Shown in pieces: positions 19,450 to 19,607 of a stretch of DNA of 64,000 nt. Made by a program: the position numbers and the translations under genes. The first letter of the stretch is position 1; each line of letters opens with the position of its first letter. The stretch is taken from the NCBI GenBank assembly GCA_009777485.1, contig WRLT01000007.1:1-64000 (forward strand). The letters are read 5' to 3'. Source of the stretch: Bacillota bacterium (GTDB taxonomy: Bacteria > Bacillota > Clostridia > Christensenellales > Pumilibacteraceae). The notes beneath the pieces were generated by a model, which searched no databases, was not told where the DNA came from, and saw nothing but the letters and a program-made list of their open reading frames with translations.

Positions 19450-19572
19450 CTAAAAATTGCTTGCTTGCTTGCTTGCTTGCTTGCTTGCTTGCTTGCTTGC
19501 TTGCTTGCTTGCTTGCTTGCTTGCTTGCTTGCTTGCTTGCTTGCTTGCTATGCTCACCTCTAAGTGTATCAT
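19450..19572 (-). CDS. Possible leaderless mini-ORF spanning the tetranucleotide tract, 40 aa
   Basis: The ATG (19572-19570) lies 6 nt after a strong -10 box, the same spacing as other leaderless genes here. It reads MIHLEVSI, seven copies of Ala-Ser-Lys-Gln from the repeat, then ASNF and a TAG directly after the tract. Gain of one unit would add about 16 codons before the next stop; loss or gain of two changes the end again. No frame joins the SPFH gene. It may be a real phase-variable leader peptide or only a by-product of the repeat. Confidence 0.35.
   Translation of the reverse strand: MIHLEVSIASKQASKQASKQASKQASKQASKQASKQASNF
19457..19548. repeat. 23 perfect tandem copies of TTGC (GCAA on the - strand)
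   Basis: An uninterrupted 92-bp tetranucleotide tract, 23 units. It lies between the promoter at 19579-19607 and the SPFH-TIR genes, in the transcribed leader. Tracts of this length are prone to slippage during replication and are the hallmark of phase-variable loci. Confidence 0.95.
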
Positions 19573-19578
19573 AGTTTT

Positions 19579-19607
19579 ATTATACACTGTTTTACAGAGA
19601 AAATCAA
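19579..19607 (-). promoter_or_regulatory. Promoter upstream of the tetranucleotide tract and the SPFH-TIR operon
   Basis: Leftward TTGATT (19607-19602), 17-nt spacer, TATAAT (19584-19579) with TG just before it (extended -10). Transcription starts at about 19572, so the repeat tract is transcribed. Confidence 0.68.

Follow-up and report, generated by a model that had tools for sequence, protein, structure and literature searches.

The leader of an SPFH-TIR operon, built around a (GCAA)23 tract, is in all likelihood a phase-variable transcription attenuator under the control of translation, and the same layout recurs at at least 11 loci. The operon lies in the window, i.e. the whole stretch of 64,000 nucleotides that was analysed. 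RNA polymerase would start at or next to the ATG of the leader and transcribe a short open reading frame (ORF) that consists mostly of (GCAA)n. Because all frames of the tract are open, the ribosome would leave it in a frame set by the number of units modulo 3. Two of the exit frames would stop the ribosome 33–37 nt short of a hairpin, so that the terminator would fold and transcription would mostly end ahead of the operon (the OFF state). With n = 21, 24 or 27 the ribosome would leave in the third frame, enter the 5′ arm of this hairpin and stop there, which would keep the terminator from folding and let transcription proceed (the ON state). The state would flip by slipped-strand mispairing within the 92 bp of repeats. 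Slippage in cells, the transcription start, leader translation, termination and read-through are the steps that we infer from the sequence. The initial annotation of this DNA had proposed that slippage within the transcribed leader likely causes phase variation, and both the anatomy of the locus and at least ten sister loci strongly support that proposal.

A GCAA tract in a short ORF next to a promoter

The tract is perfect, spans 92 bp (19457–19548) and reads (GCAA)23 on the minus strand, which is the sense strand, and (TTGC)23 on the plus strand, as initially annotated. As judged from shuffles, no such tract is expected by chance. A stop codon occurs in none of the three frames through (GCAA)n, and each frame reads Ala-Ser-Lys-Gln. 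Upstream, a −35 box TTGATT (19602–19607, minus strand) and a −10 box TATAAT (19579–19584, minus strand), separated by a 17-nt spacer, form the promoter match TTGATT-N17-TATAAT from 19607 to 19579. The initial annotation was right about this match but not in calling it an extended −10 promoter, as the bases preceding TATAAT are GTG rather than TGN. It had also placed the first ATG at the expected transcription start, and indeed the leader ATG (19572–19570) lies 6 nt behind the −10 box; transcription would start at or next to this codon. As assembled, the leader ORF (19450–19572, minus strand) has 40 codons and stops with TAG (19452–19450) 7 nt past the tract, in agreement with the described Ala-Ser-Lys-Gln frame that ends directly after the repeats; this is the predicted OFF frame. 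The product, MIHLEVSI(ASKQ)n...NF*, begins with a short non-repeat stretch (MIHLEVSI) before the tract. Since no Shine-Dalgarno site was seen ahead of the leader ATG in the window leader, initiation would be leaderless or close to it. The order of parts on the minus strand is promoter, ATG, MIHLEVSI stretch, (GCAA)23, TTTTTAGTTAATC..., hairpin, TTTTT, AAGGAG and the SPFH ATG at 19330. Rfam gave no match anywhere in the window.

The −10 box and the leader ATG are also covered by a 26-bp inverted repeat, AGTGTATCATAGTTTTATTATACACT (19563–19588), which looks like a repressor operator and is listed here as an operator-like candidate. This repeat is absent from the sister leaders, and its chance count of zero is not an independent test, because the search pattern was derived from the repeat itself.

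One of three frames extends into a terminator hairpin

Between the tract and the SPFH gene, outside the interval that the initial annotation had considered, lies an intrinsic-terminator hairpin, GCCGTAGCCGTG-T8-GCACCTGCGGC (19382–19412, minus strand), with 11 pairs and −13.6 kcal/mol; a U5 run (19377–19381, minus strand) abuts its end. Two frames are shut by TTTTTAGTTAA behind the tract, with TAG at +7 and TAA at +11 (19446–19448, minus strand; used at n = 22, 25, ...). The third stays open until a TAG at +51 (19406–19408, minus strand; used at n = 21, 24 and 27), a position within the 5′ arm of the hairpin, whose start is at +45. The distance from stop to hairpin is therefore 37 nt for n = 23 and 33 nt for n = 22, while n = 21 and n = 24 bring the stop inside the 5′ arm. 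Because two frames stop within 11 nt and the third reaches the 5′ arm, one frame in three would bring the ribosome onto the terminator. On the assumption that a ribosome occupies the 13 nt downstream from the first base of the stop codon, all 11 stem pairs stay free at either early stop and none at the late one. We predict that n = 23 (as assembled) or 22 is OFF, and that n = 21 or 24 is ON. The earlier statement that a change of one unit adds about 16 codons holds for n = 24 but not for n = 22, which again gives 40 codons, with its stop at +11; n = 21 is also extended. None of the three frames runs from the tract as far as the SPFH start codon.

As a control, we looked for hairpins of at least this class of strength (−13 kcal/mol or stronger) in the upstream regions of the window. 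They were present in 2 of 23: in the (GCAA)23 leader, and 118 nt ahead of the minus-strand gene at 14882, where the hairpin is probably the terminator that closes the SPFH-TIR operon.

The layout recurs in the family

The closest counterpart is a (GCAA)21 tract in the same genome (contig C4, 72289–72372) with the same order of parts: a promoter, an ATG 6 nt behind the −10 box, the tract, a double stop, and a long frame that ends in TAG inside the terminator. The TAG has the same position as in the window, and the hairpin is similar but stronger (−17.7 kcal/mol); the gene that follows encodes an 839-aa RCC1-repeat lipoprotein. A search of 74 genomes of the family revealed tracts of at least eight units in six genomes, and a search with an edge pattern added further copies. 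Downstream sequence was readable at 12 loci (two in the window's genome G000, four in G007, three in G014, and one each in G001, G017 and G031). The layout is well supported for the window locus, the C4 locus and nine loci in four further family genomes. It is weaker in G031, where two frames reach the hairpin and the contig (C14) starts in the tract, the upstream half being missing; this locus was kept apart from the other 11.

All 12 loci carry, 42–81 nt after the tract and ahead of the gene, a terminator with an energy between −13.6 and −18.9 kcal/mol; the window hairpin is the weakest of the set. The stop of the long frame begins −1 to +16 nt from the start of the hairpin (12 loci). At 11 of the 12, two frames stop 27 nt or more ahead of the hairpin, so that its stem is entirely free, and the long frame leaves 0–2 pairs. 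The early stops are TAG, TAA or TGA at slightly shifting places, with the third frame staying open throughout, a pattern that speaks for selection acting on the stops themselves and not just on a conserved word. Nine family loci whose promoter sequence was examined have their ATG 6–10 nt behind the −10 box. Transcription usually starts about 7 nt behind this box, so the 5′ end of the mRNA would fall at or within ∼4 nt of the ATG, and the leader mRNAs at these nine loci would be leaderless or nearly so.

The numbers of units differ among loci (7, 12, 15, 18, 20, 21 and 23); some counts are uncertain, as many contigs end in the tract and MAG assembly may misjudge unit numbers. The predicted OFF frame was found at the window locus (n = 23), C4 (21), G007:C3 (20), G001:C9 (12), G014:C21 (7), and G007:C38 and C49 (both 18), and the ON frame at G014:C2 (15). 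The states of G007:C38 and C49 were deduced, since their contigs begin inside the leader, and that of L080 was assigned from its ATG, although a GTG in another frame would yield the long frame. Seven of the eight readable loci are thus in the OFF frame, and one ON locus in eight does not differ significantly from the expected one in three. Further upstream halves are cut off within the tract by the end of their contig (G007:C44 and C51; G001:C8 and C20), so the real copy numbers are probably higher. Contigs end or begin inside the tract at L082, L084, L085, L087, L089, L090, L124 and L125, where short-read assemblies hide further copies. G007 is the MAG Emb289P1bin19, and its name points to a termite gut (Embiratermes) as the source.

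The genes behind these leaders mostly encode lipoproteins, and the window, with its SPFH-TIR operon, differs in cargo. Products with a lipobox (by eye) carry BspA-type leucine-rich repeats (LRR; G001 and G014:C21), Big_2 and InlB-like repeats (G014:C12), a Listeria-Bacteroides repeat (G007:C74) or RCC1 repeats (G000:C4); others with a lipobox have no known domain (G007:C3 and C38; G014:C2). GCAA runs in G009, G069 and G017:C5 were excluded as three-to-four-unit, coding-like stretches (by eye).

To judge how readily the layout arises by chance, we made dinucleotide shuffles of the tract-to-hairpin interval, and both features appeared in 4–10% of trials per locus. Loci with alike terminators are not independent, and by eye the terminators form at least five sequence-unlike groups: the G000 pair; G007:C3, C38 and C49 with G014:C21 and G001; G007:C74; G014:C2; and G014:C12 with G017. 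From the per-locus values and five groups we estimate a joint chance of ∼1e-6.

GCAA tracts outside the family

A strict upstream pattern gave no further hits among 396 genomes of the order. In the class, which was searched with a looser tract pattern, GCAA tracts of at least seven units occur in 3 of 391 genomes including that of the window; the initial annotation's view that such tracts are rare in Clostridia is thus correct for the GCAA unit, but within this family they are recurrent. In the other two genomes, G126 (L130; same order) and G577 (L132; same class), the tract is followed by a terminator and then by a gene whose product has a secreted-like start (by eye), and an SD-like stretch precedes the ATG (by eye). 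G126 has 37 units, a hairpin of −33 kcal/mol and frame gaps of 31, 18 and 5 nt; G577 has 13 units, a hairpin of −40 kcal/mol and gaps of 46, 12 and −1 nt. Their frames are graded, unlike the two-off/one-on arrangement of the family. Tracts of GCAA were also seen in phage or prophage on the viral contigs L097–L101; in L098, L100 and L101 they lie near the start of an apparent DNA adenine methyltransferase gene (by eye), i.e. they are ordinary in-gene contingency tracts.

Comparison with known switches

In classical attenuators such as trp, the position of the ribosome on the leader ORF decides whether the terminator forms. The leader described here would work likewise, but inherited repeat number takes the place of amino-acid or antibiotic-dependent stalling, and no antiterminator helix was seen in the leader. 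Haemophilus-type contingency loci carry GCAA and similar tetranucleotide tracts inside coding genes. They share the slippage-prone tetranucleotide tract and the modulo-3 switch of frame; the tract here lies in a separate leader ORF rather than inside the switched gene itself, and would act on transcription.

The nearest relative is the pil1 switch of Streptococcus gallolyticus, in which GCAGA repeats within a leader ORF change where the leader stop falls with respect to a terminator (Danne et al., 2014, PMC3894217). Mutants show that a longer leader peptide disrupts this premature terminator, mutants in the start codon, terminator and stop agree in the main, and isolates with the leader stop at least 28 nt before the terminator stay mostly low (PMC3894217). 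The OFF-frame gaps of at least 27 nt in the family match this threshold. As in pil1/pil3, a promoter is followed by a short ORF with ∼20 repeats, a stem-loop terminator and a surface operon, and frame shifts move the stop from at least 28 nt before the hairpin to a place at or within it; the energies here are similar to that of the pil1 hairpin (−18.7 kcal/mol). The window leader has the non-triplet repeat in a leader ORF behind a promoter, the terminator before the first gene, and a stop that moves with repeat number. Because it has no Shine-Dalgarno site before the leader ATG, we class it as a variant rather than a plain member of the pil1 type. The differences are the unit (GCAA, 4 bp, versus GCAGA, 5 bp), with GCAGA tracts absent from the family; an ATG 6–10 nt behind the −10 box without a ribosome-binding site (versus RBS and ATG); ON in one of three frames (versus two of three in pil1); and several loci per genome in uncultured Clostridia, with lipoproteins and the SPFH-TIR operon instead of pili as cargo. 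Hence the mechanism is known, and what is new is the unit, the lineage, the near-leaderless start, the one-in-three ON rule, the number of loci per genome and the cargo. A search of largely open-access literature found no further papers on a pil1-type mechanism.

Alternative explanations

Tracts of this kind can expand neutrally, and the repeat might be an incidental microsatellite without regulatory effect next to an unrelated terminator. We hold this to be very improbable, as unit, strand and order of parts are alike at a dozen loci of one family, the geometry of frames and stops is kept over unlike terminators, and similar loci occur in two other families. The leader RNA is long and transcribed, and tract length could instead tune RNA folding or transcript stability in a graded manner, not modulo 3. 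The initial annotation had offered both routes beside leader translation, of which leader translation, through frame-dependent reach of the terminator, is the one favoured by our data. The leader as a whole folds with no greater stability than its shuffles (z −0.03), and tract-RNA structure was set aside for this reason; graded tuning would, in addition, leave the two closed frames and the one open to the terminator unexplained, and we consider it very improbable as well.

The polarity might also be reversed, the early-stop frames being ON and the long frame OFF, e.g. if transcription or later initiation were impeded by a ribosome halted at the hairpin. The seven of eight readable family loci assembled in a short frame would suit such a switch, but that count fits the one-in-three ON expectation as well. 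The leader has just one hairpin and no apparent alternative structure, so a ribosome that occupies it should prevent termination, and pil1 shows that occupancy means read-through (PMC3894217). Reversed polarity thus seems very unlikely to us, and we keep to an attenuator that would be ON in the long frame.

Descriptions of the pil1 mechanism have so far concerned two pilus loci in a single Streptococcus group. That its logic is seen at about a dozen loci in one family of Clostridia, and again in two further families, suggests a wider route to variable surface proteins in gut Firmicutes. Repeat-counting attenuators are easily missed, as leader ORFs go unannotated and the tracts break short-read assemblies. 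For each locus, n modulo 3 gives an exact prediction. We give about even credence to the broader idea of a multi-locus GCAA-attenuator regulon with near-leaderless ORFs, by which uncultured gut Clostridia would shuffle the expression of many surface lipoproteins independently and hold a TIR operon under the same stochastic switch.

The operon behind the leader

If the attenuator operates as proposed, a TIR operon is under phase variation. Its first gene (18239–19330, minus strand), preceded by the Shine-Dalgarno site AAGGAG (19340–19345, minus strand), encodes an SPFH/Band_7 protein of 363 aa (Pfam Band_7_1, 3.6e-16). Relatives of this protein in 60 related genomes are just 18–29% identical, and no orthologous leader was found among them. 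The second gene (15367–18234, minus strand) follows after a 4-nt gap and encodes a TPR-TIR-BspA LRR protein of 955 aa, whose TIR_2 match is weak (24.2 bits versus a Pfam cut-off of 28). PADLOC recognised neither protein; the operon may conceivably be an immune or signalling system. The BspA-type LRR at the C-terminus of the TIR-region protein is a domain type shared with the lipoproteins behind the G001 and G014 leaders. Downstream of the TIR gene, the window also encodes a Listeria-Bacteroides repeat lipoprotein (13527–14882), which has no repeat tract of its own.
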